A stretch of DNA of 64,000 nt from a virus: positions 1-64,000 of the IMG/VR virus record IMGVR_UViG_3300008259_004750. One strand, written 5' to 3'. Position 1 is the stretch's first letter. Every line of letters begins with the position of its first letter. The notes beneath the pieces were generated by a model. The model did no database searches and was not told the DNA's origin. It saw nothing but the letters and a program-made list of their open reading frames with translations. The position numbers and the translations under genes are program-made. Shown one piece after another: positions 2,071 to 54,661 of the stretch.

Positions 2071-4152
2071 TTATTGATAATCATATGAAATACCTTCCAT
2101 ATCACAGTTATTACATTGGTTTGACGAAGGTGTTTGAGTTTTAGTTGATGTTACTGTAGTGGTATTTGTAGGAGTTACCGTTGGTGTTTTGGTATTTGTA
2201 GGGGTAAATGTTGGTGTTGGGGTATATGTAGGAGTTTGTGATTTAGTTGGGGCTAAAGTTTTTGTTGGGGTATATGTAGGAGTTTGAGTTGGTGTTTCCG
2301 TAACAGGAATTTTTTGGGTTTTTGATGGTGCGGGTGTTTTAGTTGGAGTTTCAGTTGGTTTTGGAGATATGTTATTTGTACTTGTAATAGTTTGAGTTGG
2401 GGTACTTGTTGGGTCAAAAGTTTTTGTTGGAGTTTTTGTCACTGAAATTGATGGTGTTACTGAAATTGTAACGGTATTTGTTAGTGTTGGGGTTTTTGTT
2501 GGTTCTAAAGATTTTGTTGGTGTATAAGTTGGTGTAGGTGTTTGACTTAATGGGATACATACAGGTCCAGCACAACTACCTACTAACACTCCATAAGCAC
2601 TTGTGGTATTATATACCTCACCATCAATAGCACAAATTGTGGTAGTAGTATCCCCCGAGGCAACCACTATTTCTGCAAAATCTAATGTTAAACAACTAAG
2701 GTAAATTAATCTACCAAACTCATATGGAGGAATTGTTACCACCCTATAACACATACAATTATATATTGGAGTAAAAGATGGTGTTGGAGTTTGAGTTGTT
2801 GTAGGTGTTAGTGTTGGAGTTTGAGTTGTTGTAGGTGTTAGTGTTTTAGTTTGAGTTACGGTTGATGTTATTGTTACTGTTGGAGTATTAGTTGGTTCTA
2901 TAGTTTTAGTAGGAGTTTTTGTTTGAGTATTAGTTGGTGTTACTGAAATATTTAATGTTGGAGTTGGAGTTAGAGTTGTTGTTTTTGTTGGGGGAGGAGT
3001 CCTCTCAGGTTCAGGGCAATCTATCGCAAAACTCCAAGCAGTACCTGGAAGTGGGGCTAAAATGTAAACAAATACACTAGTTGGAGATATTGTTGTTTTA
3101 TAAAACGGAACTGAGCCAATCCCAGGCCCTGAAACATTTGGATATCCTAAATCATTTAATTGTGAATTATATAATGAACTACCTCTAAATCCAGTGTTAA
3201 TTACTTCATTACCATCCCAAACAACAATAAACCTATCAGGAACTGAATACGCACTGAAATTTAGTGTTACTTGACCAACTAATGAACCAATTGATACTTC
3301 ATATACATATTCTCCACTACCACCATTTCTTAAATTTACAGTATCATTACAACTTGCAATTCCTTGAGGTGTTAAAGTTGGTTTAGGTGTATTTGTTGGT
3401 GTTTCTGTTAGTCTTGGCAGTCTTGTTTGAGTGTGGGTTGGAGTTGGTGTATTGGTAGTTATTGGTGTTGACGTTAATGTTTTTGTTGGGGTTTTTGTTG
3501 GTTCTAATGTTTTTGTGGGTGTGGGGGTTACTCTTTGAGTTTTTGTAGGTGTGTTTGTTGGCGTTTGACTTAATATTATGGGTTGTCTTTCGGGAGGTAT
3601 GGTTTGAGTTGGAGTTGGAGTTTGGGTTGGAGTGTTTGTTAATGTTGGAGTTGGAGTTTGGGTTGGAGTTTGGGTTCTAGTTGGTGCATTTGTTTTAGTT
3701 ACATTTGGTGTTGGTGGAATAGTCGGTGTTGGTGTGGGGGAACAAGGTATTCTTGACTTTGTTGGAGTTGGGGTTCTTGTTGGATTAATAGTTTTTGTAA
3801 GTGTGGGTTCTATTGTTAAAGTTGGGGTCGGTGATATTATACACGGATTAAAAGTTGGGGTCGGTGAACTGGTTATTGAAGGTGTAGATGTTTGAGTTTT
3901 AGTTAATGATATTGTAGGTGTATTAGTTGGTGTTGGTAATGGTGGATTAATATAATAAGGACAATTTGGTTCTGACTCTGTTAAAATAGTGTACGTACCG
4001 TAAATGTTTAACGGTGGAGTTGGCTCATAGGTGTACGGTAAAATTACGGTTCCTAAATTAATTACCTGGTCTGAATTAATAGGTTGGAATATAATCTGAG
4101 CAGATTCTCCATCGTAATGTATACTTTCTATTATTATTATTTCAGACGACAT
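2071..4152 (-). CDS. Thr/Pro-rich modular adhesin, 693 residues
   Basis: The N terminus (about residues 1-75) is a small folded domain. It is followed by long Thr/Pro/Lys/Gln linkers of the TPTPTKTPT type (about 75-260, 380-460 and 540-680). Two folded modules lie between linkers: a beta-sandwich-like module with SVPDRFIVVWDG (about 265-380), and a Cys module starting CMC and ending SCAGPVC (about 465-535) that recurs in other adhesins here. The linkers resemble mucin or extracellular Thr/Pro spacers and are good O-glycosylation substrates. Strand-asymmetric repeats give Val/Gly-rich shadow frames on the plus strand. Likely displayed on the virion for host attachment. Confidence 0.85.
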   Translation of the reverse strand: MSSEIIIIESIHYDGESAQIIFQPINSDQVINLGTVILPYTYEPTPPLNIYGTYTILTESEPNCPYYINPPLPTPTNTPTISLTKTQTSTPSITSSPTPTFNPCIISPTPTLTIEPTLTKTINPTRTPTPTKSRIPCSPTPTPTIPPTPNVTKTNAPTRTQTPTQTPTPTLTNTPTQTPTPTQTIPPERQPIILSQTPTNTPTKTQRVTPTPTKTLEPTKTPTKTLTSTPITTNTPTPTHTQTRLPRLTETPTNTPKPTLTPQGIASCNDTVNLRNGGSGEYVYEVSIGSLVGQVTLNFSAYSVPDRFIVVWDGNEVINTGFRGSSLYNSQLNDLGYPNVSGPGIGSVPFYKTTISPTSVFVYILAPLPGTAWSFAIDCPEPERTPPPTKTTTLTPTPTLNISVTPTNTQTKTPTKTIEPTNTPTVTITSTVTQTKTLTPTTTQTPTLTPTTTQTPTPSFTPIYNCMCYRVVTIPPYEFGRLIYLSCLTLDFAEIVVASGDTTTTICAIDGEVYNTTSAYGVLVGSCAGPVCIPLSQTPTPTYTPTKSLEPTKTPTLTNTVTISVTPSISVTKTPTKTFDPTSTPTQTITSTNNISPKPTETPTKTPAPSKTQKIPVTETPTQTPTYTPTKTLAPTKSQTPTYTPTPTFTPTNTKTPTVTPTNTTTVTSTKTQTPSSNQCNNCDMEGISYDYQ
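2120..3960. repeat. degenerate Thr/Pro-encoding repeats
   Basis: Short degenerate units of the form GTTGGAGTTTGA / GTTGGTGTTTTA recur dozens of times in three blocks, interrupted by two unique folded modules. Similar arrays occur at 4400-4670, 5600-5770, 6000-6090, 8380-8465, 31930-33650, 35870-36410 and 36930-37030. They would provide homology for recombination or slippage between adhesin genes. Confidence 0.8.
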
Positions 4153-4172
4153 CCTTTAATATTAATTGAATT

Positions 4173-4229
4173 TTAAATTTTATCCACATGATGATTCAAA
4201 TGTCGCTTTAATTTAATAAAAAATTCCAT
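4173..4229 (-). pseudogene. 18-codon remnant of an MEF-type adhesin gene, or leader ORF
   Basis: The ORF begins MEFFIK, identical to the first six residues of the 4491-6854 adhesin, but then runs LKRHLNHHVDKI to a TAA. Its upstream DNA is also similar to that in front of 6854, including a TATTTATA element at 4245-4252, 15 bases before the ATG. It ends 20 bases before the start of the 693-residue adhesin. It could be a truncated third copy whose promoter now drives the next gene, or a translated leader. Confidence 0.4.
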
Positions 4230-4244
4230 CCAAAGATTTTATTT

Positions 4245-4252: not shown

Positions 4253-4271
4253 CTTTGGTTATGGGAATTGG

Positions 4272-4490: not shown

Positions 4491-6854
4491 TTACGTTTTC
4501 GTAATTGAAGGTGTTAGGGTTGGGGTCCTTGTTACTGTTGGAGTTGGGGGGGTGTTAGTTGAAGTTTTGGTTGGTGTATTGCTAGGTGTTTCGGTTACAG
4601 ACATTGTTGGGGTATTATTCGGGCTTTCAGTTATTGTTGGCGTGGTTGAATTAGTTGGTGTTGGGCTTGGTGGAGGGAATCCTTCAGTACACAATATATA
4701 TGAATAATTTTTAGTTCCGTCAGAAACAAATAGTTGATTATCCCCTAAGTTTGAGTAATGTATTTTTATATTATTTGGGGATGAGGATTGAACTCCTGGA
4801 GTTGGTTTATAAGTATATAAAATTGTGTTACTTGAGCAGTCATATTTTGTAATGTATAAAATAGATTCAAAATTAGAAGCTATATAAATTACATTATTTA
4901 CCTCATCTAATGTCATACTTACAGCCTCACCATAACTAGCCGAACTAAACTCTGAATAATTAACTATACTACCCGAAGAATAACTGGTAATTCTATTTTG
5001 TGTTGTTAAAACATAAATGTAGGTGTCAATTGGGTTATATAAAATTTGTTTGAATCCTGCAATACCTGAGTTAACAGAATCAACATAAGTATAATTGGCA
5101 TTAGTATCATACCTATCCATAGTAGTTCCGCTATTGACAATATACAAATAATTGTCATCTATCGAAACTGCCATGTCATAGTAACTAGAACCTGTTAATA
5201 AAATTGTCTTTGTTACAGACATTGTAGATGGGTCAACTATTTTTAATTCGTTACCTCCATAACCCAATACCAAAAAAATGCCAAAACTATCAAATACAAT
5301 TGGACCACCATCTACATTAGTAATTGTACTTACAGTATCTGTTGCCCAATCATAACCTAAAAGAGAAGTTTTGGATGCTTTTTGTATTGAAAACACATAA
5401 GATTGATTTGAAGCAACATAAGCAGTGTCTGTTGTAATTGTAAAATTAATAATATCCTGTATAAAATTTAATCCGCTATCAAAAACACTAGTTCTAATGG
5501 TGTTGACTTGATAAAGGTAGCTTCCGTCAGTGGTTACTGTGTAGGCACTTACACCGGTATATGCCGTTAAATATCCGGTTACAGACGGACAAATACCAAA
5601 TCCTGAAGTTATTGTTGGGGTTGGGGTAACCGAAGTATTAGTTGGTGTAGGAGTTACCGATGTTTCAGTTATTGTTGGTGTAATTGTAGGTGTTATCGTA
5701 TTGGTAAGTGTTGGGGTTAGGGTTATTGAAGTGGATGTATTGGTAGGTGTTGGGTTTGGTGTTCTGGTCGGTCTTGGGGGTTCAGGACATCCTGAATTGG
5801 TAATACATGTACCCCCTGTTATAATAGTCACCTGATATGCAAATTCGCCATATGCCAAAAATGTACCTTTTTTAAGACAAAGTGACACACTACTATCTGA
5901 AGGATAAATTACATCGGCGAATGAACTACCCGCGCAAGTTATACCGCTAATAGTAATAAAATAATCGTAAGTAAAGAATGATATACATTCGCAATTTGAT
6001 TCATTAGTCGTTGTAATTGTTGGAGTTTGAGTTGGAGTTTCAGTATTTGTTGGAGTTTGAGTTGGGGTTTGAGTTGGAGTATTAGTAATAAAAACAATAT
6101 CCGAATTAACAGTAATGTTACCTATTGTACCAAACCCTGGTGAGTTAATACCTCTAAATAATGATTCTTTAGTGAGTGAATAATAATCTTCATCTAATAT
6201 TACTTGACTAACTCCGCTTAAAGTATTTTGGTTTAGTGTTACTCCGCTTTGAATTATGATTACACCTCCAGAATTAGTTACCAACGCATTAGTGAATACA
6301 AATGATAAGTCATCTATAAAATATCTGTTTGATGTGATTATATAATCTATGATAATTGAACCTGGACTATATATTGCTCCTAAAACTAATTCATAGGGTA
6401 CCGGTGTTTGTGTTGGACTCGGTGTCGGTGTAGGAAAATTAACTAAAGTTGGTTTTTTGTTATTACAACAAGCAAAGTCAGAAACATAACAAGATGAATA
6501 CCCTAAATCTTCAGTAATAAAAGAATCAACTACGTTTACATATATTTTTTCATTTGTTGGTAACACATAAGTCCCATCATAATTTGATATAGTAAATTCA
6601 GACTCAAATCTACCTTCTTTTAATGTATCATTGTTTTGAAATTGATAGTATATGTAATAATTAGGTTTACTTCCACCAACACCTGCTGGTTTGTTGATTA
6701 TCTTTGGAATTCCCGTATCGACATTAGTCATAGAAAAAAACAAAGACGACAACTCTAAAGTGTTTAGAAAATTATCATAATCATTTCTTCCATTATCAAC
6801 TATGTTTAATTTTAAAAGGGGTAATGTCGCTCCTTTTTTTATGAAAAATTCCAT
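4491..6854 (-). CDS. Thr/Pro-rich adhesin with propeller-like domain, 787 residues
   Basis: Residues 1-140 form an N-terminal domain (MEFFIKKGATLPLLKL) shared with the 8530-8766 gene, probably the virion-attachment part. There follow a beta domain, a Thr/Gln/Pro linker, a Cys module beginning CECISFF and ending GCPEPP, another linker, and a ~280-residue repeat domain (SYYDMAVSIDDNYLYIVNSG, DEVNNVIYIAS) of beta-propeller type. A last Thr/Pro tail ends at a premature-looking TAA. The start is fixed by homology of the MEF opening and a TATTTATA element 15 bases upstream. Role in host binding is inferred from architecture and neighbours. Confidence 0.85.
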   Translation of the reverse strand: MEFFIKKGATLPLLKLNIVDNGRNDYDNFLNTLELSSLFFSMTNVDTGIPKIINKPAGVGGSKPNYYIYYQFQNNDTLKEGRFESEFTISNYDGTYVLPTNEKIYVNVVDSFITEDLGYSSCYVSDFACCNNKKPTLVNFPTPTPSPTQTPVPYELVLGAIYSPGSIIIDYIITSNRYFIDDLSFVFTNALVTNSGGVIIIQSGVTLNQNTLSGVSQVILDEDYYSLTKESLFRGINSPGFGTIGNITVNSDIVFITNTPTQTPTQTPTNTETPTQTPTITTTNESNCECISFFTYDYFITISGITCAGSSFADVIYPSDSSVSLCLKKGTFLAYGEFAYQVTIITGGTCITNSGCPEPPRPTRTPNPTPTNTSTSITLTPTLTNTITPTITPTITETSVTPTPTNTSVTPTPTITSGFGICPSVTGYLTAYTGVSAYTVTTDGSYLYQVNTIRTSVFDSGLNFIQDIINFTITTDTAYVASNQSYVFSIQKASKTSLLGYDWATDTVSTITNVDGGPIVFDSFGIFLVLGYGGNELKIVDPSTMSVTKTILLTGSSYYDMAVSIDDNYLYIVNSGTTMDRYDTNANYTYVDSVNSGIAGFKQILYNPIDTYIYVLTTQNRITSYSSGSIVNYSEFSSASYGEAVSMTLDEVNNVIYIASNFESILYITKYDCSSNTILYTYKPTPGVQSSSPNNIKIHYSNLGDNQLFVSDGTKNYSYILCTEGFPPPSPTPTNSTTPTITESPNNTPTMSVTETPSNTPTKTSTNTPPTPTVTRTPTLTPSITKT

Positions 6855-8288: not shown

Positions 8289-8576
8289 TTAAATACAAGG
8301 ATTATTATCCGATATAATATAATCCCCTTCTTCTGTTAAAATGTAATTACCAGTTTCATCTGTTAAGTATTCTATACAAGGGTTTGTTGGTGTTGGCGAA
8401 GGAGTATAACTTGGCGTTGGTGTTGGCGAAGGAGTATAACTTGGCGTTGGTGTTGGCGTTGGTGTTGCCTCAGGAGGAGCAATTATACAGCATTGATATT
8501 TTCCGACCCAGCATGACTCATAATCCAAATCATCTATAATAAAGATAATATTCTGAAGGTGTATTAGGGTCATCAA
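8289..8576 (-). pseudogene. C-terminal part of a collapsed MEF-type Thr/Pro adhesin
   Basis: From about FIIDDLDYESCWVGKYQCC onward this frame matches the segment FITEDLGYSSCYVSDFACC of the 787-residue adhesin. It then gives a compact Thr/Pro linker (TPTPTPTPSYTPSPTPTP, partly an exact tandem repeat) and an acidic tail ending ISDNNPCI. Its apparent start, MMTLIHLQN, is the out-of-frame reading of the upstream gene, so it is more likely the 3' half of one gene than an independent gene. Reinitiation at the ATGATG is possible. Confidence 0.6.
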
Positions 8577-8766
8577 ATTCTTTCTCTACGAATCCAGCAA
8601 ACGCGGAATTAATTTTTAATATACCCGTAGATATATTTTGCATAGAAAAATAGATAGTCGAGGTTTCAATAAATCGCATGAAATCTTCATACGACCCTCT
8701 ACCATCTTTTACAACTTGCATTTTTAATAACGGCAAAGTCGCATTTTTCCTAATAACAAACTCCAT
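8530..8766 (-). CDS. N-terminal part of a collapsed MEF-type adhesin, 78 residues
   Basis: MEFVIRKNATLPLLKM aligns with the start of the 4491-6854 adhesin (MEFFIKKGATLPLLKL), and similarity runs to SEYYLYYR versus NYYIYYQF. The next ~55 residues of the longer paralogue are missing, and the frame ends at TGA. The remaining homologous sequence follows in the frame of 8289-8576. This looks like a deletion that removed about 150 bases and shifted the frame. A TATTTATA element lies 15 bases upstream at 8782-8789, so the gene is probably still transcribed. Confidence 0.65.
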   Translation of the reverse strand: MEFVIRKNATLPLLKMQVVKDGRGSYEDFMRFIETSTIYFSMQNISTGILKINSAFAGFVEKEFDDPNTPSEYYLYYR

Positions 8767-8813: not shown

Positions 8814-11189
8814 TTAACTTTCTTTTCTTATACCAGACTCGTAATGTTCAAACCTATTATGTTCAGTCGGACTAGCAAGTAATAGACCAAAATTAAGATT
8901 ACCCTTTTTAAGCTCTTGGAACATGTAACTCATCCAAGTTTGTTCATATGGATGAGCCCATTTAGTATCCAAAAACATTTTCTTACTACCTTCTTTTGAA
9001 ACCACTTGAGGCCAATTACAATAATAAATCTCTCCTGTCGCATAGGCTAAACCTTCATAAGATTTAATATTTTTATAGTTGACTTTTGGAGCATTAGGGT
9101 CAGTACCGATTTGAGGTAATTTAGAATAATTTGGCCAAAATTCTTCTCTTACTGATTGTGGTACATTATACCAAGACCATTGTGTTGAATTGTCCCCAAA
9201 AAATTCACTGAAATTAAATTTCAAGTAGTCAAAATTTTCATCACTGGCAATTTTTAGTGTTTTATCATATAATGATTTGATATATCTAGTGAACCCATTT
9301 CTACATGTACTATCCTGTCCTCCATAAAAAAACATATCATCCTCAAAGAAGAAATAATAATTTAATCCCGTCTCTTCAAAATGTTCCGCAATAAATTGTC
9401 TTCCTCCACATATTCCTAAATTTTCTTTTTTAATATGTTCAAAACCATATCTTTCACAAAGTTCTTTATATCTTGGTGTGGTTGATAAGTCAGTGGAATT
9501 ATCTAAAAGATATTTTGCTGGTTTATTTATAAAATCCGCATCATATAACAACATAGAATCAATTAGTGTTTCAAATTGTTTTGGACTATTAAAACCAATC
9601 ACATACAATGCTGTCTTTTTTATGTCCTTTATAGGCTCTCCATTAGGACGAGTATGTTTACTTTTAACTTCTAAGGTTTCATTCTTTAAACCCTCAAAGA
9701 ATTTCCCCATTAAACCATTATCGTCAATTTCAAAATAGTTAATTAAACTAGCGTATTTGTATAATATTATGGAAAACACGGATTCTTCGGTACCCATAAA
9801 TCCATCATTTAACGTATTGATTAATGTGGAGTAATAAATTGAGTTAATTTCTGATATAGTATTTTTAGGACCACCAAAAAAACCACCTCTTGCAACTAAA
9901 TCAACATTTGAATTTGCATAATCATTAATCTTTGGATATGAGAATCCGTGAATTTCACTTGTGGCTTTGTATGGAAAACATACGAATGAAAATTTATCAA
10001 AATATTTTCTTAATTTATTTTGAACTTTGTCGTGAGTAAAATAACCAGGATGTATTGTATTTGTTATACCCGCGTCAATCCAATACATTTCATCTGAATT
10101 AAACTTATCTAAAATTTTCGCATCATGTAATAAAAACATTTTAGACATAACCAAAGGATTATACAACTCTAGTTTGGCTTGAGTCGATTCAGACAACCAT
10201 CCTGATTGATTTAACCAATTTGGATTTTTTCTAATTTCTTGTATTTTTTCAAATGGGACCGCAGATTTTAACCATTCGGTACCTCTTCTAATAAACTGAG
10301 TGTTTTTGTCGTCCCTTCTTTCTTTTACAAACTTTTCTAGTGATTCGTCACCATATATAATTAAATTAACATCCGCCTTTAACAATTCAGAAAATTTTGT
10401 TAAATAATGGTCATAACTTCTAGACCAACCATCAGCTAATGAATCTCTTTTTATATCCCAAAGACCAGTGACTAAAGTAACCACAGATTTAATTGATTCA
10501 TCATCACTTGAATCTGCGCTTTTAACAACATCATCATCAGTTTTTACAACTAATTCGGGAGCGACTTTCATCTTACAAACCCAAACTATTGATTGAAAAA
10601 TATCATTTCTATAATCAACTAAATTATTTCTCTTACAAGGTTCTAATATATCATTTTCAGTTAGTTCACACCAATTCCAAATTTTACCATTTATATTTTG
10701 TTCAAAATATTCTTGATTGATTGAGTAATCATGACCTAAAATAAAATCATTTTCTTTTATATAATTTGATAACAAATTGAATTCACCTTTTTTATCACCG
10801 CCATCACATAAGACAACGGTCGTACCATCTGATTGAATAAAATCTATAATATATTGGGACACAGAATCATAACTTTGGGAGAAAACATTTTCAATTCTAA
10901 TGTCAATCCCATTATTTTTCATTTCTTCATACCAAGGATATTCGTTGATATCCAATGTTAGAATTTCACAATCAATGCCTAAATCTTTACATGATTGATT
11001 TAAGAATGATGTAAACCCACCTATAGAAGTTCCAATTTCTAAAATTCTTTTTGGTCTTATTTCTTTGAGAAAATAGAAAAAAACCTCGAACGCTTTATAG
11101 TTTTGTTGGGCACCCCAGTTACCATATGATGATACACTATCCCCACTTTCTAAATCACTTTTTTTTGTTATTTTGTCTATGTAAATCAT
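8814..11189 (-). CDS. three-domain methyltransferase / HtrL-like / glycosyltransferase fusion, 791 residues
   Basis: Residues ~30-210 are a class I SAM methyltransferase-like domain: glycine motif ILEIGTSIGGFTSFLNQ, then EILTLDINEYPW and VVLCDGGDKKGEF. Residues ~235-520 (VTLVTGLWDIKRDSL, then YWIDAGITNTIHPGYF) resemble the HtrL/WlaTC family of putative bacterial glycosyltransferases. Residues ~530-790 are a GT-A-like domain with an acidic FFFEDDMFFYGG metal-binding motif. It is the last gene of the minus-strand carbohydrate operon and shares its middle domain type with the next gene upstream. Probably adds and modifies sugars on virion proteins or a host glycan; substrate unknown. Confidence 0.75.
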   Translation of the reverse strand: MIYIDKITKKSDLESGDSVSSYGNWGAQQNYKAFEVFFYFLKEIRPKRILEIGTSIGGFTSFLNQSCKDLGIDCEILTLDINEYPWYEEMKNNGIDIRIENVFSQSYDSVSQYIIDFIQSDGTTVVLCDGGDKKGEFNLLSNYIKENDFILGHDYSINQEYFEQNINGKIWNWCELTENDILEPCKRNNLVDYRNDIFQSIVWVCKMKVAPELVVKTDDDVVKSADSSDDESIKSVVTLVTGLWDIKRDSLADGWSRSYDHYLTKFSELLKADVNLIIYGDESLEKFVKERRDDKNTQFIRRGTEWLKSAVPFEKIQEIRKNPNWLNQSGWLSESTQAKLELYNPLVMSKMFLLHDAKILDKFNSDEMYWIDAGITNTIHPGYFTHDKVQNKLRKYFDKFSFVCFPYKATSEIHGFSYPKINDYANSNVDLVARGGFFGGPKNTISEINSIYYSTLINTLNDGFMGTEESVFSIILYKYASLINYFEIDDNGLMGKFFEGLKNETLEVKSKHTRPNGEPIKDIKKTALYVIGFNSPKQFETLIDSMLLYDADFINKPAKYLLDNSTDLSTTPRYKELCERYGFEHIKKENLGICGGRQFIAEHFEETGLNYYFFFEDDMFFYGGQDSTCRNGFTRYIKSLYDKTLKIASDENFDYLKFNFSEFFGDNSTQWSWYNVPQSVREEFWPNYSKLPQIGTDPNAPKVNYKNIKSYEGLAYATGEIYYCNWPQVVSKEGSKKMFLDTKWAHPYEQTWMSYMFQELKKGNLNFGLLLASPTEHNRFEHYESGIRKES

Positions 11190-11213
11190 AATTAGATAAA
11201 ATTAATTAAATGT

Positions 11214-12161: not shown

Positions 12162-12164
12162 TGT

Positions 12165-13749: not shown

Positions 13750-13752
13750 TTT

Positions 13753-17420: not shown

Positions 17421-17423
17421 TTT

Positions 17424-19655: not shown

Positions 19656-19667
19656 AAAAGTTATATT

Positions 19668-20318: not shown

Positions 20319-20328
20319 TAGTTATATT

Positions 20329-21616: not shown

Positions 21617-21642
21617 TGGTAAATAGTATTTTAAATTTACCA
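21617..21642 (-). terminator. possible hairpin at the end of the Gly-rich gene
   Basis: An 8-bp perfect inverted repeat (TGGTAAAT/ATTTACCA, loop of 10) overlaps the stop of the 21637-22518 gene and precedes the carbohydrate operon. It lacks an immediate T-run, so it may be an attenuator or processing site, not a strong terminator. Confidence 0.3.
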
Positions 21643-22518: not shown

Positions 22519-22525
22519 ATTATTT

Positions 22526-23374: not shown

Positions 23375-23375
23375 A

Positions 23376-46168: not shown

Positions 46169-46169
46169 A

Positions 46170-46997
46170 ATGGAAAAAAAATTAAAATGGTTTAGTTATC
46201 TAAATGATAACCCAAAAATGTTAAATGAGTATTTGGAATACTATAAAGTGGCAATTTATAGCCAAACTATAAATTGTCCGTCTTTAGAACCATATCTAAT
46301 ATATGATGGTGATAATGAAGAAGTAATTTCATTTTGCGAAAGAAAAAACATTAAATTAATAAAATACACGCCAAGGATTAAAGAGGAGGTAATTAAACAT
46401 TATAGTGTACATCAACCAACTCAAGTTTTTGACGCGTTAGCTTGTTTTTTAAAACCTTACGTACCTCTAATTGTAAAAGAAATTTTAAAATCTGATGACG
46501 AATATGTTATTTTAACAGATACTGATGTATTGTTTTTGAATGAACCTAACTATACCGAATCAAATAAAATAAATTTCATAGGTGTTTCATCTGAGTTTGA
46601 TATCAATTTATCCGACTTTAATGCCGGTATTATGTATTTTAACGTTGAGAATATGTATAATGACTTAGAAAATTTTGAAAAATTTATAGTTAAAAATTTT
46701 GATAAGTTTAAGGTTTTTGACCAAGACGCGTTTAAAATTTATTATAGTGACCGAACTAAAAAATTACCTGTTGGATACAATTACAAATGTTACTGGAACT
46801 ATTCCAAACCTATCGATGAAATAAAAATTATACATTTTCACGGTTTAAAACCATATCAATATATGGATGTGTTAACCGGTAAAAATACAAACCCAGTTTT
46901 AAAACCTATGTTAACTCCATTTTACATTGAAATGGTTGGATACTATAAGGGATTAAGAGATATTGAGAAGAAAAGTTATGAAGTACTTGAGTTTTAG
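46170..46997 (+). CDS. GT8-like glycosyltransferase, 275 residues
   Basis: Key segments are YVILTDTDVLFLN (Asp-Thr-Asp metal motif near residue 115), LSDFNAGIMYFN, FKVFDQDAFKIYY and IKIIHFHGLKPYQ. Together they are the DXD, N-A-G, D-Q-D and H-x-x-G-x-x-K-P signatures of GT8 retaining transferases. Start is the ATG one base after the previous stop. The next gene's likely ATG lies inside this gene's end. Confidence 0.8.
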   Translation: MEKKLKWFSYLNDNPKMLNEYLEYYKVAIYSQTINCPSLEPYLIYDGDNEEVISFCERKNIKLIKYTPRIKEEVIKHYSVHQPTQVFDALACFLKPYVPLIVKEILKSDDEYVILTDTDVLFLNEPNYTESNKINFIGVSSEFDINLSDFNAGIMYFNVENMYNDLENFEKFIVKNFDKFKVFDQDAFKIYYSDRTKKLPVGYNYKCYWNYSKPIDEIKIIHFHGLKPYQYMDVLTGKNTNPVLKPMLTPFYIEMVGYYKGLRDIEKKSYEVLEF

Positions 46998-47634
46998 TTT
47001 GTGGGGTGACGACCCATTATACAACGTAGGGGCGATAAAAAATGCCGAATTATCTAAAATGATTTATCATGATTGGAAGGTTGTTCTGTATTATGATAAA
47101 ACAGTACCTGAAGAAACTATAAGTAAAATAAAAAATTTAGATGTTGATGTTATTGACATGAGTGAAAGTAATATTTATGGTTGTTTTTGGAGATTTTTAA
47201 TATCAGATAAAGAGGATTGTGAATATGCTATCTTTAGAGACTGTGATTCTAGAGTAACCCTAAGGGAAAGATTAGCGGTAGATGAATGGATTAATAGTAG
47301 GAAAACTTTGCACGTAATGAGGGACCATCCATATCATAGAATTCCGTTCGGAAATGATAGTTTGGGTATCTTAGCAGGAATGTGGGGTATTAAAGGTAAA
47401 GTTATAAATTTTAATGAATCAATTACAAATTTTATTACTGGTAAATCAAACTATTATGGTATTGACCAAACATTTTTAAAAACAATATATAGTATGTTTG
47501 AAAAAGATAGAATTATTCATGATGAGTTTTTTGATGGTCGTCCGTTCCCAATAAAAAGAGAACCAGGAATTTTTGTTGGGGGTCGAATCGGTATAAATGA
47601 AAAACCATTAGGTGAAGAACATAAATTAGTATGA
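46978..47634 (+). CDS. glycosyltransferase-like protein, 218 residues
   Basis: I choose ATG 46978 (MKYLSFSLWGDDPLYNVGAI); a TTG 15 bases earlier is less likely. It is homologous to the middle domain of the 743-residue minus-strand protein: SFSLWGDD versus SYSLFGTD, VMRDHPYHRIP versus VIRDHPWHSPY, and YGIDQTFL versus WGTDQDIL. It has AIFRDCDSRV as a probable acidic metal site. Its presence on both arms shows the two carbohydrate arrays share ancestry. Confidence 0.7.
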   Translation: MKYLSFSLWGDDPLYNVGAIKNAELSKMIYHDWKVVLYYDKTVPEETISKIKNLDVDVIDMSESNIYGCFWRFLISDKEDCEYAIFRDCDSRVTLRERLAVDEWINSRKTLHVMRDHPYHRIPFGNDSLGILAGMWGIKGKVINFNESITNFITGKSNYYGIDQTFLKTIYSMFEKDRIIHDEFFDGRPFPIKREPGIFVGGRIGINEKPLGEEHKLV

Positions 47635-47640
47635 TAAAAT

Positions 47641-48354
47641 ATGAAAATAGATTATTGTTTAATGGGGTCCACTAATGACCCGCTTTATTTAGATTTTTGG
47701 CCAGTAGTATCTAAAGTATGGAAGGAAGTTTTTAATGTTACCCCTGTTTTAGGACTAATATGTGATGAAGATTCTGAATTATTAGAAGATGATTATGGGT
47801 TAATTAAAAAATTTAAAAAGTCCACAATCTGTGATGAATCCACACAATCACAACTCATTAGATTATACCTAAGTAGATTTTTAAACGGAAATTGTCTAAT
47901 CTCGGATATTGATATGATTCCTGTCTCTAAAAAATATTTTATAGATGATTTAGTAGAATATGAAGAGAATGATATTTTAGTGATGTCATCACATCATCCA
48001 CAAACTATACACACAAATCAATATCCGATGTGTTATGTTTTAGGTAAATCAAACAATTTAAATAAATTATTCAAAACCGAATTATCTTGGGATGATTTTT
48101 TAATATCAACAAATCCTAATAGTTGGTTTTCGGACCAACTATTTATTTACAAATCAGTTCAAGAGTTTGGAACTGAAAATATTAAATTCCCATATCGTAG
48201 TTTTGAAAACGATAGAATTGATAGAGCTAATTGGATTTATGATAAAAATCTAGTTACAAGTGGAACTTATATTGATTCTCACCTATTAAGACCTCTTAAA
48301 TATTATAGAGGTCAAATCGAGGTATTAATTAATTTATTATATCGCCAAAATTGA
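47641..48354 (+). CDS. putative GT-A glycosyltransferase, 237 residues
   Basis: A single GT-A-like domain. MKIDYCLMGSTNDPLYLDFW starts the nucleotide-binding half, LISDIDMIPVSKKYF gives an Asp-x-Asp (near residue 88), and the C-terminal half has WFSDQLFIYKSV and DSHLLRPLKYY. The start is 6 bases after the preceding stop. Substrate unknown. Confidence 0.65.
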   Translation: MKIDYCLMGSTNDPLYLDFWPVVSKVWKEVFNVTPVLGLICDEDSELLEDDYGLIKKFKKSTICDESTQSQLIRLYLSRFLNGNCLISDIDMIPVSKKYFIDDLVEYEENDILVMSSHHPQTIHTNQYPMCYVLGKSNNLNKLFKTELSWDDFLISTNPNSWFSDQLFIYKSVQEFGTENIKFPYRSFENDRIDRANWIYDKNLVTSGTYIDSHLLRPLKYYRGQIEVLINLLYRQN

Positions 48355-48356
48355 GA

Positions 48357-49112
48357 ATGGATTTTATACTTGGTGAAAAATTTAAAACAATCGTAACAGA
48401 CAAAGTTTTTTATGTAAAAACTGAACATGTTAATAATTTTTTAATGAATCCCCCCAAACATGAGTTTATTTTAGTTTCACATAATAGTGACGGTAAGATT
48501 ATCGATTATGACTACCTACATTGTGCGAATGTGAAATACATACCTAAAAATTTAATAAGGTGGTTTGGTCAAAATGTGTGTGTTAAAAATGAAAAAGTGG
48601 AATCAATTCCAATAGGTTTGGAAAATACTGAATGGTTTGTTGAGGAGAAAAAAATAGAGAATATTGAGTATTATAGAAACTTAAATATTGAATTTGAAAA
48701 TTTGCTTTATATAAATCATAACATTAATACTAACCCTATGGAAAGAATGGAACCATATAGATTATTCAAAGACTCTAAATGGGCGACTTTGGTAATGGGT
48801 AGTAACGGGTCTAATTTTAAAAATTATATTGAAAATGTGAAAAAACATAAATTCGTATTGTGTCCTGAGGGTAATGGTACCGACACTCATAGAACTTGGG
48901 AGACATTATATGTTGGCTCAATTCCTATAGAAAAAAGAAATATAAATAATTCTTTTTATCAGGACTTGCCAATTTGTTTTGTTGATTCTTGGTCTGAAAT
49001 AAATGAAGACTTTTTAAATTATGAGTTTGACAGAATTAAAAATACAAAATGGAATTTAGATAAATTAAATTTTAGTTATTGGAAAGATAAAATTATAAAC
49101 TATAGTAAATGA
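48357..49112 (+). CDS. exostosin-like (GT47-related) glycosyltransferase, 251 residues
   Basis: The C-terminal region FVLCPEGNGTDTHRTWETLY, then GSIPIEKRNINNSFYQDLPI and CFVDSWSEI, is the Pro-x-Gly-x-G-x-D-x-x-R-x-x-E pattern of exostosin-type GT-B enzymes, with Arg and Glu for the nucleotide-sugar. I start it at ATG 48357; a TTG two codons earlier overlaps the previous gene. A short 45-base gap with an A-tract follows before the next gene. Confidence 0.7.
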   Translation: MDFILGEKFKTIVTDKVFYVKTEHVNNFLMNPPKHEFILVSHNSDGKIIDYDYLHCANVKYIPKNLIRWFGQNVCVKNEKVESIPIGLENTEWFVEEKKIENIEYYRNLNIEFENLLYINHNINTNPMERMEPYRLFKDSKWATLVMGSNGSNFKNYIENVKKHKFVLCPEGNGTDTHRTWETLYVGSIPIEKRNINNSFYQDLPICFVDSWSEINEDFLNYEFDRIKNTKWNLDKLNFSYWKDKIINYSK

Positions 49113-49157
49113 CTATAACTTTTTACTTAAAAAAAAAAATTATTATACTATAACAAC

Positions 49158-49805
49158 ATGAATGTAGTAATTTCAGTACTGTCGGTAGACACTCCCCCAT
49201 TTACTGAACTTGAGAAATCAATTAGAGAAACTTGGTGCAATTTAAATAGACCTAATTTTAAAATATTTTTTTATTATGGCAATCATAATAAAAATGAAAT
49301 AATTGGTGACAAAATTTTTACTAACTCAGGCGAAGGGTTATACAATGTGGGATACAAAACTTTAAGAATGTTTGAAGTTATCTACAAAAACTATAATTTT
49401 GACTACATATTCAGAACTAACTCCTCATCTTATGTTGATATTGATAATATGTGTAACTTTTTAGTGGACAAACCTTTAGAATCTTTTTACTGTGGAGTTT
49501 TTGGTAAAAGTGGTAACATTGATTTTTGTTCTGGTAGTGGTTACTTTTTGAGTAGAGATTTGGTAAAAAGGGTTATAGATAACCAACGTTTATGGAATCA
49601 CAATTACATAGATGATGTTTCACTAGGATTATTAATGTCTCAATTAGGAATTAATAGGACTTTGGGTAAAAGATATGATTTTGATAGTGGTTTACCTATT
49701 AATTTAAATAATTACCACTATAGATGTAAAATATCTGATAATAGATTAGACGACATTAAAAATATGAATTTAATATACAATTTAAAAAAACAAAAATATG
49801 AATAA
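49158..49805 (+). CDS. GT31-like (beta-1,3-galactosyltransferase/Fringe type) glycosyltransferase, 215 residues
   Basis: SIRETWCNLNRP near the N terminus, YIFRTNSSSYVDIDNM in place of the usual D-D-D metal strand, FCSGSGYFLSRDLV and the late YIDDVSLGLLM reproduce in order the R-x-T-W, D-x-D, G-x-G-Y-x-L-S and E-D-V motifs of GT31. The metal motif is degenerate (Asn-Ser-Ser), so activity is uncertain. It overlaps the next gene by 8 bases. The 45 bases before it are AT-only with a 10-base A-run. Confidence 0.65.
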   Translation: MNVVISVLSVDTPPFTELEKSIRETWCNLNRPNFKIFFYYGNHNKNEIIGDKIFTNSGEGLYNVGYKTLRMFEVIYKNYNFDYIFRTNSSSYVDIDNMCNFLVDKPLESFYCGVFGKSGNIDFCSGSGYFLSRDLVKRVIDNQRLWNHNYIDDVSLGLLMSQLGINRTLGKRYDFDSGLPINLNNYHYRCKISDNRLDDIKNMNLIYNLKKQKYE

Positions 49806-50382
49806 AATTAAAGAAAAGTACGATTACGAACAAAAAAACATTTCTGATATCAATGAACATATTTCTACGTTATATGAATATGGTCTAAAATGTAGTCATA
49901 TAACTGAAATGGGTGTTAGATGGGTATCATCTACATGGGCGTTTTTATATTCTAACCCTAATAAACTTATTAGTTATGATATAGTTAAAGATGCAAATGT
50001 TAATGAAGTCATCTCTTTATCTAAAGAATATGGTATTAATTATGAATTTATTGAGTCTGATGTATTAAACATTAATATAGAACAAACTGATTTATTATTT
50101 ATTGATACTTTACACACTTATAATCAATTGTTATCTGAATTAAAATTACATTCAACTAAGGTTAATAAATACATAATATTACATGATACAGTTAGTTATG
50201 GTCAAATAGATGAACAAGTTTACAATCATGCAAGTCCAATTGTAAAAAATATGGAAAATAATAAAACAGGTCTTACTAACGCAATTAATGACTTTTTATT
50301 ATTAGATGTTGGTAAAACATGGTTTGTCTCTAAAGAATTTAAAAATAATAATGGTTTGACTGTTTTAGAAAAAAAAATATAA
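49798..50382 (+). CDS. putative class I SAM methyltransferase, 194 residues
   Basis: HITEMGVRWVSSTWAFLYS resembles the SAM-binding Glu-x-Gly-x-x-x-G-x-S loop; LLFIDTLHTYNQLLSELKLH and KYIILHDTVSYG match the Asp-x-x-His-x-Y and His-Asp-Thr segments of CmcI/Methyltransf_24-type sugar methyltransferases. Last enzyme of the glycan set before phoH. Probably O-methylates a transferred sugar; inferred. Confidence 0.65.
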   Translation: MNKIKEKYDYEQKNISDINEHISTLYEYGLKCSHITEMGVRWVSSTWAFLYSNPNKLISYDIVKDANVNEVISLSKEYGINYEFIESDVLNINIEQTDLLFIDTLHTYNQLLSELKLHSTKVNKYIILHDTVSYGQIDEQVYNHASPIVKNMENNKTGLTNAINDFLLLDVGKTWFVSKEFKNNNGLTVLEKKI

Positions 50383-50389
50383 TATAATA

Positions 50390-51109
50390 ATGACAAGAAA
50401 AAAACCTATTTCAGTTCAAGAAGAACCTAAGAAAAATGTGAGTAGGAAAGACCAAATCACTGAAATAATAAAGAAAAAATCAAAAGAAAAATTTTTATCT
50501 GAAAATCAAAAAAAATACTACGATTTATTAGTTGGTAATCAAATTACCATTTGTTCGGGGCCGGCAGGTGTTGGTAAAAGTTATATCGCCATGAAAGCCG
50601 CTTTAGATTTATTATCCGACCCAACCACTCCATACGAAAAAATTATAATTGTAAGACCGGCGGTTGAGGCTGAAGAGAAACTTGGGTCGCTACCGGGTAA
50701 TGTCGAAGAAAAATTAGACCCTTATATTTTTCCATCATATTACCTAATGAATAAAATTATCGGTAAGGAGGCCAGAGAAAAATTAAAGCAGATTGATGTT
50801 ATTGAAGTTTTTGCTCTAGCTTATATGAGAGGTATGAACATTGATAATTCAATTCTTATTTTCGAAGAAGCTCAGAATTCTACTCCAAATCAAATGAAAC
50901 TTTTGTTGACAAGGATTGGGTTTAATAGTAAATTTTTTATTTCGGGGGATTTAGAACAAACTGATAGATATAAAGACAAAAAACACTCAGGTCTTTGGGA
51001 TGCAATTGAAAAATTCAAGGATTTATCTGACGTTGGTGTTTTTGAATTTGATAATCAAGATGTTGTTAGAAATCCTTTAATAAGTAAAATACTTAAAAGA
51101 TACGAATAA
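50390..51109 (+). CDS. phoH: PhoH-like ATPase
   Basis: Walker A GPAGVGKS at 57-64, LGSLPGNVEEKLDP near 98-111, Walker B ILIFEEAQN at 155-163 and SGDLEQTD at 185-192 are the full PhoH/PhoL set; the ~50-residue N-terminal extension is basic. PhoH-like proteins are common in large phages; proposed roles include RNA or phosphate metabolism, with no settled function. Seven bases after the methyltransferase stop; its TAA overlaps the next ATG by one base. Confidence 0.92.
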   Translation: MTRKKPISVQEEPKKNVSRKDQITEIIKKKSKEKFLSENQKKYYDLLVGNQITICSGPAGVGKSYIAMKAALDLLSDPTTPYEKIIIVRPAVEAEEKLGSLPGNVEEKLDPYIFPSYYLMNKIIGKEAREKLKQIDVIEVFALAYMRGMNIDNSILIFEEAQNSTPNQMKLLLTRIGFNSKFFISGDLEQTDRYKDKKHSGLWDAIEKFKDLSDVGVFEFDNQDVVRNPLISKILKRYE

Positions 51110-51789
51110 TGAGAATCGGTATTGAAATCAACGGTGTGCTTAGAGATACTATTAGTAAATTTACACAAATATACGAGAAAGAGTATTTAGGGGCCGAGGT
51201 AATTGAAACTCCATCACAAACATATACCTTAGATTTATCAGGTAATACTGAAGAAATATTACCATTAAAACCATTTAAATATGAAATTATATCTGAGGTA
51301 AATTCCTTGGAGCTTGAAAACCATTTTTCGTTTCAGTCTAAGGAAGAATTATATTCATTTATGTTTGAGGAATATGTTATGGAGTTGTTCGGTCACGCCC
51401 CATCAACAGAGTACACCACCTTTAATGATTTAAATGATTTATATATTAAAATCAGAGATAACCATGAATTAATTATAATTTCTGATGAGATTGGTAAATC
51501 AAAACCGGCATCTTTATTTTTCTTATCAAAATTTGGATGTTTAATTGAAAAAATTGTGTTCTACAGTAATTCCACAATTAATTCAATGTGGAATGAAATA
51601 GACCTTTTACTTACCTCCAATCCTAACTTATTATTAAATCATCCGTCAGAAAAACAAGTAATAAAGTTTGAGACGGTTTATAATAAAAACGTAAATTCCG
51701 AACATAGTATTTTATCTATTAAGGAATTTGAAAACAAAATAAATGAAATCACAAATGTTGAAAATTCTGAACGAACATTACTATCTTGA
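51109..51789 (+). CDS. HAD-like protein with altered active site, 226 residues
   Basis: The opening MRIGIEINGVLRDTISKFT looks like HAD motif I (D-x-D-G), but both aspartates are replaced (Glu6, Asn8). ELIIISDEIGKSKPASLFFL resembles motif II plus the Lys region. If HAD-related, it is probably catalytically inactive and serves a binding or structural role. It overlaps the next gene by 47 bases. Confidence 0.5.
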   Translation: MRIGIEINGVLRDTISKFTQIYEKEYLGAEVIETPSQTYTLDLSGNTEEILPLKPFKYEIISEVNSLELENHFSFQSKEELYSFMFEEYVMELFGHAPSTEYTTFNDLNDLYIKIRDNHELIIISDEIGKSKPASLFFLSKFGCLIEKIVFYSNSTINSMWNEIDLLLTSNPNLLLNHPSEKQVIKFETVYNKNVNSEHSILSIKEFENKINEITNVENSERTLLS

Positions 51790-52024
51790 TTTAGATGAGA
51801 TAGATAATTACATCAATATTGAACCTCCCGCAAATTTTACTGGGAGTGGTGAAAATCATATTAGTGTTGTAAAATACGAAATGGTTAAAACTCTCATTGA
51901 AATTTTAATGACTGAAAACGAAGGCGTCGACGAGACACTAGGTCCTAAAAATTCAGATTTATCAATCCCGTTTAAAATAGCGTTTAATACACTTTTAAAT
52001 AAAAAACTTTTAAATAAATACTAA
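51743..52024 (+). CDS. small hypothetical protein, 93 residues
   Basis: Begins MKSQMLKILNEHYYLDLDEI; a second ATG 12 bases in (51755) is also possible. Acidic, helical, with FTGSGENHISVVKYEMVKTL. The 47-base overlap with the upstream gene in another frame is longer than usual here, favouring the later ATG. No family recognised. Confidence 0.6.
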   Translation: MKSQMLKILNEHYYLDLDEIDNYINIEPPANFTGSGENHISVVKYEMVKTLIEILMTENEGVDETLGPKNSDLSIPFKIAFNTLLNKKLLNKY

Positions 52025-52027
52025 TCT

Positions 52028-53095
52028 ATGAATCAAGAACAAATTTCAAAGTTAGAGAAATCAATCTCTAACATGAAAGAAAAAAAGTCCAAAATTTATT
52101 TTATTGTACAGGACACAAAAGGAAATGCAAAAGCTTCGGTGGCTTACATTTACCATATGGCAATGTCTCTGATGGAGAAAGGATATAATTCCATAATACT
52201 TCACGAAAAACCTGACTACACAAATGTAGGTTCATGGATGGGTGTTGATTTTTTAAAAATCCCTCATAAATCGATTGAAGGTCAACAACTTGAAATCGCG
52301 CCTGAGGATTTAATTGTAATACCAGAACTATACGGGTTTGTCATGTCTCAAATTACAAACTTACCATGTGGTAAAATCGTATTGTGTCAGGCGTATGACC
52401 ATATGTTAGAAACACTACAGCCAGGTCAAAATTGGCAACAATTAGGGTTCTTAAAGTGTATTACAACCTCCGAGTTTCAAAAAGAATTCATCTCAAATGT
52501 AATGAGAAACGTTTCATTTGACATTGTAGAACCTTTCATATCCGAACATTTCAAAAAGCAAAGTTTACCGCCAAAACCAGTAATCGCAATCCACTCAAGA
52601 GATGCTAGAGATACTGCAAATATAATTAAATCATTTTATCTAAAATTCCCACAATATCGATGGGTATCATTCAGAGATATGAGAGGTCAAACAACTAAAG
52701 AGTTTGCAAAAAACCTACAAGATTGTTTCCTTTCAGTATGGGTAGACGAAACAAGTGGGTTTGGAACATTCCCATTAGAATCTATGAAATCTGGAGTACC
52801 TGTACTTGGATTAGTACCTAATTTAACTCCAACGTGGATGAGTGAAACAAATGGTTTTTGGATAAATAACAAAAATCAAATTGTTGATTTTATTGCTGAT
52901 TTTTTACAAAATTGGTTGGAAGATAACATCAAAGAAGAACTTTATACAGAAATGCAAGTAACTGTAGATTACTTATCTAGTAAAGAAGAATTTTATAACA
53001 AAACAGTCGACTTATTTTTAAGTTATATTGATACTAGAGTAAATTCTTTCGAGGAACAATTAAATAAACTAACTGAAATTGAAACCGCTCAATAA
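52028..53095 (+). CDS. GT-B glycosyltransferase-like protein, 355 residues
   Basis: The N-terminal half has KIYFIVQDTKGNAKASVAYI and the C-terminal half KPVIAIHSRDARDTANIIKS, then SVWVDETSGFGTFPLESMKS and GVPVLGLVP. The E-T-S-G-F-G-T-F-P-L-E-S-M-x-S-G pattern is the donor-binding E-x7-E region of GT4-like enzymes. Its C terminus is a coiled helix. It sits with a GT2 gene between phoH and the sigma-like gene. Confidence 0.75.
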   Translation: MNQEQISKLEKSISNMKEKKSKIYFIVQDTKGNAKASVAYIYHMAMSLMEKGYNSIILHEKPDYTNVGSWMGVDFLKIPHKSIEGQQLEIAPEDLIVIPELYGFVMSQITNLPCGKIVLCQAYDHMLETLQPGQNWQQLGFLKCITTSEFQKEFISNVMRNVSFDIVEPFISEHFKKQSLPPKPVIAIHSRDARDTANIIKSFYLKFPQYRWVSFRDMRGQTTKEFAKNLQDCFLSVWVDETSGFGTFPLESMKSGVPVLGLVPNLTPTWMSETNGFWINNKNQIVDFIADFLQNWLEDNIKEELYTEMQVTVDYLSSKEEFYNKTVDLFLSYIDTRVNSFEEQLNKLTEIETAQ

Positions 53096-53096
53096 T

Positions 53097-53912
53097 ATGG
53101 AAACAAATAATAACTCTTTTAATGTTTCGGTTATATTACCGATAAAATCCGCAATAGTTCAAGGATTTGATGACTATTTTAAAAAATGTATAGATTCTAT
53201 TAAAAATCAAAAAGTAGGTATTAATGAATTAGTAATTGTACACACAGATGAAACTCAGTTGATTGAATTTTTAGATTCATATGATTTTGGGGAAATTAAT
53301 GTAAAAAAATATTCCTGGGGTGGAGAAGCTAACTACGCGATGCAAATTAATTATGGTGTTAGTGTTGCCGAATCTGAGTGGGTGTCACTTTTTGAAATTG
53401 ACGATGAATATTCGAATATTTGGTTTAAAAATGTTAAAAAATATACGGAATCATACCCTGAAGTAAACGGATTTTTACCTCTTGTTATTGATGTTGATGA
53501 AAAAGGTGTATTTGCGGGGTTCACAAACGAAGCGACATTCGCACTTAACATTTCGGCTGAAATGGGTTATTTAATGAACGAAACCTTACACACATATCAA
53601 AATTTTCAAATTTCAGGAATGGTTTTGAAAAAAGATGTTTTCTTAGAATATGGTAAAATAAAACCATCATTTAAATTAACATTTGGATATGAATTCTTTT
53701 TAAGGTTAACATATAATTCTGTTAAAATTATGACAATACCAAAAATTGGTTATAAACACACCAATATGAGAACCGGAAGTATTTTTTGGAACTATAAAAA
53801 TGGTGGAGATGTTTTGACAGAAAATGAAGTAAAGTTTTGGATTGAGTCCGCGAAAAAAGAATATTTTTTCACAGGTGAGAGAGGCATAAAATACGAACCA
53901 CAAGAAGTTTAA
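53097..53912 (+). CDS. GT2-like glycosyltransferase, 271 residues
   Basis: ATG 53097 is chosen over an upstream TTG inside the previous gene. FNVSVILPIKSAIVQGFDDY, then WVSLFEIDDEYSN (acidic metal site near residue 100) and a later GYEFFLRLTY fit a GT-A GT2 fold. The GMVLKKDVFLEYG segment is typical of the acceptor-side helix. Its TAA overlaps the next ATG by one base. Confidence 0.75.
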   Translation: METNNNSFNVSVILPIKSAIVQGFDDYFKKCIDSIKNQKVGINELVIVHTDETQLIEFLDSYDFGEINVKKYSWGGEANYAMQINYGVSVAESEWVSLFEIDDEYSNIWFKNVKKYTESYPEVNGFLPLVIDVDEKGVFAGFTNEATFALNISAEMGYLMNETLHTYQNFQISGMVLKKDVFLEYGKIKPSFKLTFGYEFFLRLTYNSVKIMTIPKIGYKHTNMRTGSIFWNYKNGGDVLTENEVKFWIESAKKEYFFTGERGIKYEPQEV

Positions 53913-54661
53913 TGACTGAAATCAGCAGTTTGTCCGGAGAAACAAACGTTGAGCTGAAGAAGAAGGGTAGGAAACCAAAACAGGCAAATTATTTTGACGT
54001 AAGAGAGGAGCAAGCGGTAATTAGATTTTTACAAGCAGAAACTTTTGACGAAAAAAATAAAATATACAATGAGTTTCTAAGAAAGCCCTTAGATAAAATG
54101 ATATCTTCAATAATAAGAAGATATAAATTATACAGAAAAGATATGGACTTCTATGAAATCCATATAGATACTCACTCGTTTTTGATGACTAAAATAGATA
54201 AGTTTAAACCTTCTAAAGAAAAGAAGGCTTATTCTTACTTTGGTACTATTTGTAAGAATTATCTGATGGGTCAAATTATAAAAGACCAAAAAGATATGAA
54301 TCGTAAAATATCTTATGAAGATATATCTAGTAATTTAGAAAACAACGCGGATTTTTCTTACAGTATTGAGAGGGATACAATAGATACTGAAGATATTATT
54401 ACAAATTTTTTGAAAGAAATTGATTATTTTTTACATCAAAGTGATTTATCTGAAAATGAGATAAAGTTGGGGCACGCTCTATATGAATTGTTTGACAACT
54501 ATAATGACATTTTTATTGGTAACGACAATAACAAGTTTAATAAAAATATTATTTTACTTTCTTTAAGAGAAATGACAAATTTGAATACAAAAGAAATAAG
54601 AAGTTCTATGAAAAAATTTAAAACTATATATTTCAATCTGGTTCAAAAAATGATTAAATAG
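53912..54661 (+). CDS. sigma-factor-like protein (T4 gp55-type late sigma)
   Basis: Residues ~60-135 (LDKMISSIIRRYKLYRKDMD, HSFLMTKIDKFKPS, AYSYFGTICKNYLMGQIIKD) follow sigma-70 region 2: helices with the Phe-x-x-Tyr/Phe-x-x-x-x-x-x-N-x-x-x-x-x-x-x-D/K pattern that binds the -10 element and the beta-prime coiled coil. A basic N terminus (KKKGRKPK) and an acidic C-terminal half follow. T4 gp55 has a similar size (185 residues) and reads a -10 only, TATAAATA. It may direct late transcription from the TATTTATA octamers of this window. Confidence 0.65.
   Translation: MTEISSLSGETNVELKKKGRKPKQANYFDVREEQAVIRFLQAETFDEKNKIYNEFLRKPLDKMISSIIRRYKLYRKDMDFYEIHIDTHSFLMTKIDKFKPSKEKKAYSYFGTICKNYLMGQIIKDQKDMNRKISYEDISSNLENNADFSYSIERDTIDTEDIITNFLKEIDYFLHQSDLSENEIKLGHALYELFDNYNDIFIGNDNNKFNKNIILLSLREMTNLNTKEIRSSMKKFKTIYFNLVQKMIK

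Follow-up and report, generated by a model that had tools for sequence, protein, structure and literature searches.

We have identified, in a virus record, a gene cassette by which a phage probably encodes cytoplasmic mucin-type O-glycosylation of its own tail adhesins. The DNA analyzed, hereafter the window, comprises bases 1-64000 (64,000 nucleotides) of the 73,072-bp record IMGVR_UViG_3300008259_004750. The cassette, an array at 8814-21576, begins with a GT60-like polypeptide glycosyltransferase, ends with an HtrL_YibB-family (HtrL) enzyme and sits between genes for adhesins with threonine- and proline-rich (Thr/Pro) linkers, on the same strand as these. With somewhat less confidence, we favor the wider view of a mobile prokaryotic mucin-type O-glycosylation system common to several giant-phage groups and bacteria, in which interchangeable enzymes are framed by a GT60 initiator on one side and a two-domain HtrL extender on the other. 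Under this view, the Thr/Pro mucin-like adhesins of each phage would wear a distinct sugar coat, in effect a phage serotype, and bacteria would apply the pair of core enzymes to Thr/Pro surface proteins that they export. What the sequences compared here show directly is the enzymes, the family assignments given for them, the pattern of constant bookends around a variable middle and the link to Thr/Pro proteins.

Thr/Pro linkers and a bookended cassette

The adhesin linkers of the window hold 570 Thr and 267 Pro among 1482 residues, and the rule used to call a linker was passed by one of 200,000 composition-matched random 30-mers; this Thr/Pro content is far from chance. A preliminary description of the DNA had counted four adhesins with long linkers, which is correct for those at 2071, 4491 and 31518, while the linker of the fourth (8289) is short, at 37 amino acids. 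That open reading frame (ORF) is the tail of a split adhesin gene. Compared with L650, a near-identical contig in which one 202-amino-acid ORF with a Thr/Pro linker spans the site, the break at 8289-8766 is a gap of ~128 bp, either a real deletion or a repeat-driven assembly collapse. Homologues of the small adhesin at 30082 that have long linkers sit before GT60 in several relatives.

Across a sample of 80 viral GT60 loci, gene order is near-constant: adhesin genes, GT60, variable genes, the HtrL enzyme and an adhesin of the 4491 type. GT60 and HtrL lie on one strand in 74 of these loci, with 0-10 genes between them, and the N-terminal family of adhesin 4491 follows HtrL by no more than two genes in 71 of the 74. 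The 220 middle proteins of these loci represent 54 families, occurring in 38 combinations; glycosyltransferases of GT2, GT10 and PLOD type are among the families sampled, as are methyltransferases. In three loci the bookends have nothing between them. The 8814-21576 array is the core of the system.

The association between GT60 and the linkers is reciprocal in related genomes, where the preliminary description had proposed to look for it. A Thr/Pro-rich protein is encoded within 10 kb of GT60 in 65 of the 80 viral loci; a linker was found in 35 of the 40 loci flanked on each side by 9 kb or more and, once GT60 was collapsed at 90% identity, in 32 of 39 clusters. In four of the five full-flank exceptions, Thr/Pro repeats turn up in another part of the record; in G015 none was found. 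When loci were selected by HtrL and had 6 kb upstream, 55 of 56 encoded GT60 and 54 of 56 Thr/Pro linkers, the sole locus without GT60 being that of the present phage, whose GT60 falls beyond the flank. Selection by the adhesin stem domain alone gave linkers in 80 of 80 loci. The stem domain or the baseplate-like protein 57194, used in place of GT60 for selection, led to six lineage records of 190 kb or more (G001-G004, G006 and G007), and every one encodes the GT60 family PF11397; where a lineage record lacks it, the record is a fragment no longer than 176 kb. Of the records retrieved with a Thr-Pro DNA pattern, 12 of 50 encode PF11397, versus 1 of 44 for a collagen-like pattern (Fisher p=0.002), a test weakened by the differing size distributions of the two panels; 11 of the 80 Thr-Pro pattern loci lay outside the Thr-Pro frame.

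Directly upstream of GT60, three consecutive Gly-rich tail-type proteins are encoded (21637-24275, minus strand); the one scanned matches PF21722. Their position beside GT60 would suit a different acceptor, with virion proteins glycosylated elsewhere (e.g. on Gly-rich or globular domains), leaving the Thr/Pro linkers as bare spacers. We judge this quite improbable, since Gly-rich proteins are rare near other cassettes (only 4 loci, versus 62 with Thr/Pro proteins nearby) and the Thr/Pro tract is the only feature common to the GT60 neighbors in bacteria. As a general acceptor, the Gly-rich proteins were rejected on the same count.

Cultured phages and bacterial loci

Among 50,697 cultured-phage records, a close GT60 occurs in only three, those of XacN1, CM1 and RAS14. 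The cassette of Xanthomonas phage XacN1 comprises ORF334 (GT60), ORF333 (carbamoyltransferase), ORF332 (similar to the protein at 11214), ORF331 and ORF330 (HtrL_YibB, 2.5e-21), and RAS14 encodes homologues of ORFs 334, 333, 332 and 330. Both phages have a PTPTPT linker near the C-terminus of a giant protein that adjoins baseplate genes in the tail/baseplate region (ORF325 in XacN1). Homologues of ORF325 occur within the cultured-phage collection only in XacN1, CM1 and RAS14, all three of which carry GT60. According to the XacN1 paper, the virion holds at least two glycoproteins, for which phage enzymes were proposed and ORF328 and ORF334 named (PMC5852040). XacN1 differs from the present phage in having one short linker region, and its authors list only those two ORFs as glycosyltransferases (PMC5852040). 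These virion glycoproteins are the sole experimental evidence, and they do not identify the acceptor. XacN1 ORF330 (L472 36552-38192), annotated as a hypothetical protein, is an HtrL_YibB-family enzyme outside the paper's set of glycosyltransferases; only one close relative was found in viral contigs.

The bacterial sample comprised 39 GT60 loci from bacterial genomes, some of them possibly phage contigs binned with bacteria. A Thr/Pro protein lies within 10 kb in nine of the 39, versus one of 40 control windows drawn from four of the same genomes (p=0.007). The order in Jiulongibacter sediminis runs from the Thr/Pro protein through GT60 and a carbamoyltransferase to HtrL; in a Saprospiraceae and a Gemmatimonas metagenome-assembled genome (MAG), the Thr/Pro protein is followed by GT60 and then directly by HtrL. 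Four Thr/Pro proteins of bacterial GT60 loci have a twin-arginine-like N-terminus and that of Saprospiraceae has a type IX secretion tail, features that appear compatible with cytoplasmic glycosylation before export. The J. sediminis locus (L478 8941-15145) is compact and chromosomal, with two GT60 genes and a twin-arginine-like start on the Thr/Pro protein. Proteins of about 2000 amino acids occur in Alphaproteobacteria/Rickettsiales MAGs (L505 and L509), the L509 ORF holding four tandem GT60 domains.

Predicted enzymes of the array

Structure prediction, which the preliminary description had suggested for each transferase, was run for the two bookends. The GT60-like protein at 20329 scores 230.8 bits against PF11397 (cut-off 21), and D92 S93 H94 (DSH), G203 E204 E205 (GEE) and H229 are invariant in 27 sequences including XacN1; most bacterial homologues have the DSH, GEE and His motifs in the same order. 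Its model (predicted local distance difference test 84.5) has as its best PDB matches the mucin-type ppGalNAc-transferases, several of them solved with mucin peptides. These animal enzymes (GT27) share the DSH motif, but identity is 11% and the superposition is partial. The relevant enzymes of GT60 itself are the polypeptide alpha-GlcNAc transferases of Trypanosoma cruzi and Dictyostelium, which share PF11397. The T. cruzi enzyme uses UDP-GlcNAc and Mn2+, acts on KPPTTTTTTTTKPP and modifies mucin threonines (PMC3769586), and Skp1 Gnt1 requires hydroxyproline (PMC6939170). Those systems are eukaryotic, of the Golgi and cell-surface mucins, whereas the present one is phage-borne, predicted to be cytoplasmic and equipped with an interchangeable extension cassette.

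Residues 232-791 of the HtrL protein at 8814 were modeled as resembling the tandem two-domain glycosyltransferases K4CP (K4 chondroitin polymerase), LARGE1 and LH3, with low template modeling (TM) scores, a predicted TM of 0.55 and uncertain domain packing. Its C-terminus is weakly similar to beta-glucosyl-HMC-alpha-glucosyltransferase (phrog_842, 0.003) and TAGT (0.055). Phage glycosyltransferases are usually given a role in DNA glucosylation (PMC12619734), and a thymidylate-synthase family occurs in 11 of 15 records, so a cassette that glycosylates hypermodified phage DNA bases was considered. We find this very unlikely: TAGT is above its cut-off in none of the 15 records, GT60 is a polypeptide-transferase family and the same cassette occurs in bacterial chromosomes. 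Thymidylate synthase is common in phages and not specific, and it was rejected as a test of DNA modification.

The preliminary description had reported about 21 sugar-transfer genes. The 11 at 8814-21576 and ten at 42209-53912 are present in the ORF list as described, and the first set does co-locate with adhesins; as a count of sugar-transfer genes, 21 is too high. About ten are at or above a curated family cut-off (8814, 13753, 15055, 16053, 19668, 20329, 44750, 46170, 48351 and 49158), and six have weaker family support (12165, 17424, 42209, 49798, 52028 and 53079). Profile searches gave no family support for five (11214, 12874, 14438, 46963 and 47641), including 14438, once described as a methyltransferase. 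One of the 21 is an epimerase and several are methyltransferases. As for serine-rich-repeat adhesin systems, in which GT-D occurs with GtfA/GtfB and accessory Sec, the one relevant match seen was the marginal GT-D match at 13753. No strongly hydrophobic 19-residue segment was found in any of the 21 proteins, which fits cytoplasmic enzymes.

Evidence on the proposed acceptor

Three lines of comparative evidence support the linkers as probable acceptors: the reciprocal association, seen in bacteria as well as in two phage lineages, the partial match of the GT60 model to a mucin-type transferase fold and the virion glycoproteins reported for XacN1. This comparative support extends to the GT60...HtrL cassette and not to all 21 genes, for which the preliminary description had proposed it. 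A number of observations weigh on the other side. The case for the acceptor is one of guilt by association, and the main text of the XacN1 paper leaves the virion glycoproteins unnamed (PMC5852040). The top fold match of GT60, ppGalNAc-T2 with peptide (E 3.7e-9), superposes only in part (TM 0.45), and sequence and profile searches of PDB with GT60 found no relative. PF11397 is missing from 38 of the 50 Thr/Pro-pattern records (fragments included), so linkers do not require GT60. In the main lineage a single adhesin module holds both linkers and cassette, and independent lineages therefore weigh more. No publication dealing directly with what HtrL does or with Thr/Pro linkers in phages came up in our literature searches.

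The wecB, HtrL and FkbM methyltransferase families also occur in surface-polysaccharide loci, HtrL reportedly in outer-core loci of Acinetobacter, and 30 of the 39 bacterial GT60 loci, Burkholderia included, have no Thr/Pro neighbor. Both facts would suit a cassette that alters host surface polysaccharide (lipopolysaccharide or capsule), blocking superinfection or changing host serotype. This alternative is unlikely in our estimation, because the lack of strong hydrophobic segments leaves no integral-membrane flippase, polymerase or initiating phosphotransferase among the 21 proteins, the cassette is embedded in the adhesin module and shares its strand, and the reciprocal GT60-HtrL-Thr/Pro association includes the bacterial mini-loci.

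One clear exception is G015 (219 kb, locus L068), which has a GT60...HtrL cassette and in which no Thr-Pro repeat was found. A PF13640 2OG-Fe oxygenase (prolyl-hydroxylase-like) gene lies ~4 kb from its GT60, and a hydroxyproline variant is possible there. As a general mechanism, a GT60 that acts like Skp1 Gnt1 on hydroxyproline, after a prolyl hydroxylase has modified linker Pro, seems to us highly improbable: PF13640 is missing from 14 of the 15 large GT60 records, those of XacN1 and RAS14 among them, in a search that covered this one hydroxylase family and leaves room for one of another family or from the host. This absence makes Thr the likelier site.

For mucin-type glycosylation of the adhesins, we infer the acceptor, sugar, order of action and purpose as follows. 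GT60 would transfer the first sugar from a UDP-sugar onto Thr in the Thr/Pro linkers of freshly synthesized adhesins. Chain extension and methylation would fall to the two-domain HtrL together with the exchangeable middle enzymes, and the decorated adhesins would then be built into the virion. The purpose may be stiff, protease-resistant linkers with a changeable sugar coat.

Other features of the window and origin of the record

Coordinates are collected in Table 1. The giant adhesin at 31518 contains an M12 (reprolysin-like) zinc metallopeptidase domain (36975-37967, minus strand; about residues 500-830; HEIGHNFTSYH), a protease borne on a phage adhesin that possibly targets host surface proteins.

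Table 1. Adhesin genes, cassette genes and second gene set of the window
Feature	Coordinates	Strand	Details
Adhesin	2071..4152	-	Thr/Pro linker 449 amino acids in 3 tracts
Adhesin	4491..6854	-	Thr/Pro linker 195 amino acids
Short Thr/Pro adhesin gene, broken	8289..8766	-	ORFs 8530 + 8289
Conserved distal bookend: N-terminal methyltransferase-like + HtrL_YibB + second glycosyltransferase-like domain	8814..11189	-	PF09612 3e-15
Cassette gene, family common to other cassettes and XacN1 ORF332	11214..12161	-	BLASTP 3e-16, 25% identity; no Pfam match
Weak glycosyltransferase, variable	12165..12884	-	TIGR04440 1e-4, under cut-off
Variable cassette gene	12874..13749	-	No significant Pfam/NCBIfam match
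GT-D-like, variable	13753..14451	-	PF08759 27.2 bits vs cut-off 27.0, marginal
Variable cassette gene	14438..15055	-	No Pfam/NCBIfam match
wecB-type UDP-GlcNAc 2-epimerase (Epimerase_2), nucleotide-sugar supply	15055..16056	-	PF02350 6e-69; TIGR00236 above cut-off
GT2 + FkbM methyltransferase fusion, variable	16053..17420	-	PF00535 1.5e-10, PF05050 4e-10
FkbM-like methyltransferase + further domains, variable	17424..19655	-	PF05050 just under cut-off
GT32-type (DXD) glycosyltransferase, variable	19668..20318	-	PF04488 3e-12
GT60-like polypeptide glycosyltransferase (PF11397), proposed chain initiator	20329..21576	-	Pfam 4e-68; phrog_24687 2e-169
Small adhesin	30082..30579	-	Short PTPTPTP stretch
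Giant virion adhesin, 2648 amino acids	31518..39464	-	Thr/Pro linkers, 801 amino acids total (residues 804-857, 1013-1206, 1924-2373, 2415-2517)
GT4-like glycosyltransferase, lineage-conserved, cassette-independent	42209..43429	+	phrog_7162 glycosyltransferase 2e-43; in G001 and G005
Second gene set: 44750, 46170, 46963, 47641, 48351, 49158, 49798, 52028, 53079	44750..53912	+	Part lineage-conserved, part variable
GT2	44750	+	At/above curated cut-off
GT8	46170	+	At/above curated cut-off
RXYLT1/GT47-like	48351	+	At/above curated cut-off
GT31-type	49158	+	At/above curated cut-off
Methyltransferase	49798	+	Weaker support

The genes at 42-54 kb are interspersed with exonuclease, dUTPase and PhoH genes. 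Those at 42209, 44750, 52028 and 53079 are retained in the distant relatives G001 and G005; 46170-49798 are absent from G001 and only partial in G005. Their tie to the linkers is weak, the set stands outside our main claim, and its lineage-conserved part may have a different role.

L650 (82 kb) matches the window at 99.7-100% over most of its length, which makes an assembly chimera unlikely for the array. Viral-contig relatives of this phage reach 322 kb, and the 73-kb record is therefore probably a fragment of a giant phage. Protein 57194 had no relative in the cultured-phage collection, a PHROGs search with ten structural ORFs gave a tail-fibre match for ORF 27935 as its sole match, and no tRNA was found in the window.

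Conclusions

The system is most likely a kind of phage virion glycosylation, known from few phages; the initiator family is new, as are the bookended cassette, the proposed Thr/Pro acceptor and the bacterial counterpart. Mycobacteriophage virion glycans are reportedly the work of phage-encoded glycosyltransferases. There, virion proteins likewise bear glycans, located at the C-termini of capsid and tail-tube subunits, while GT60, HtrL or Thr/Pro adhesin linkers are not described in the available account (Freeman et al. 2023, via PMC12619734). Autonomous glycosylation is also described for mimivirus and the chloroviruses, large DNA viruses whose own glycosyltransferases serve their capsid or fibres, mimivirus glucosylating its collagen-like proteins, but these are eukaryotic viruses with hydroxylysine-collagen or capsid protein as acceptors (PMC4691112). 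Moraphages, compared here by description, are large freshwater phages that infect Bacteroidota; the enzymes of their four core glycosyltransferase families were read mainly as DNA- or virion-modifying, with no acceptor given (PMC12619734).

Reports of virion glycosylation cover few phages and seldom identify the initiating enzymes or the acceptor sites. The enzyme family, the order of the cassette and the recognizable proposed acceptor give surveys of any genome specific features to look for. They also provide a possible account of the unassigned XacN1 virion glycoproteins and suggest a prokaryotic and viral counterpart of mucin-type O-glycosylation, best known from eukaryotes. Giant freshwater phages that hold this cassette inside their tail-adhesin genes probably dress these adhesins in sugars. 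With its middle genes interchangeable, such a coat would evolve fast, which would bear on adsorption, virion stability and recognition by hosts or grazers.

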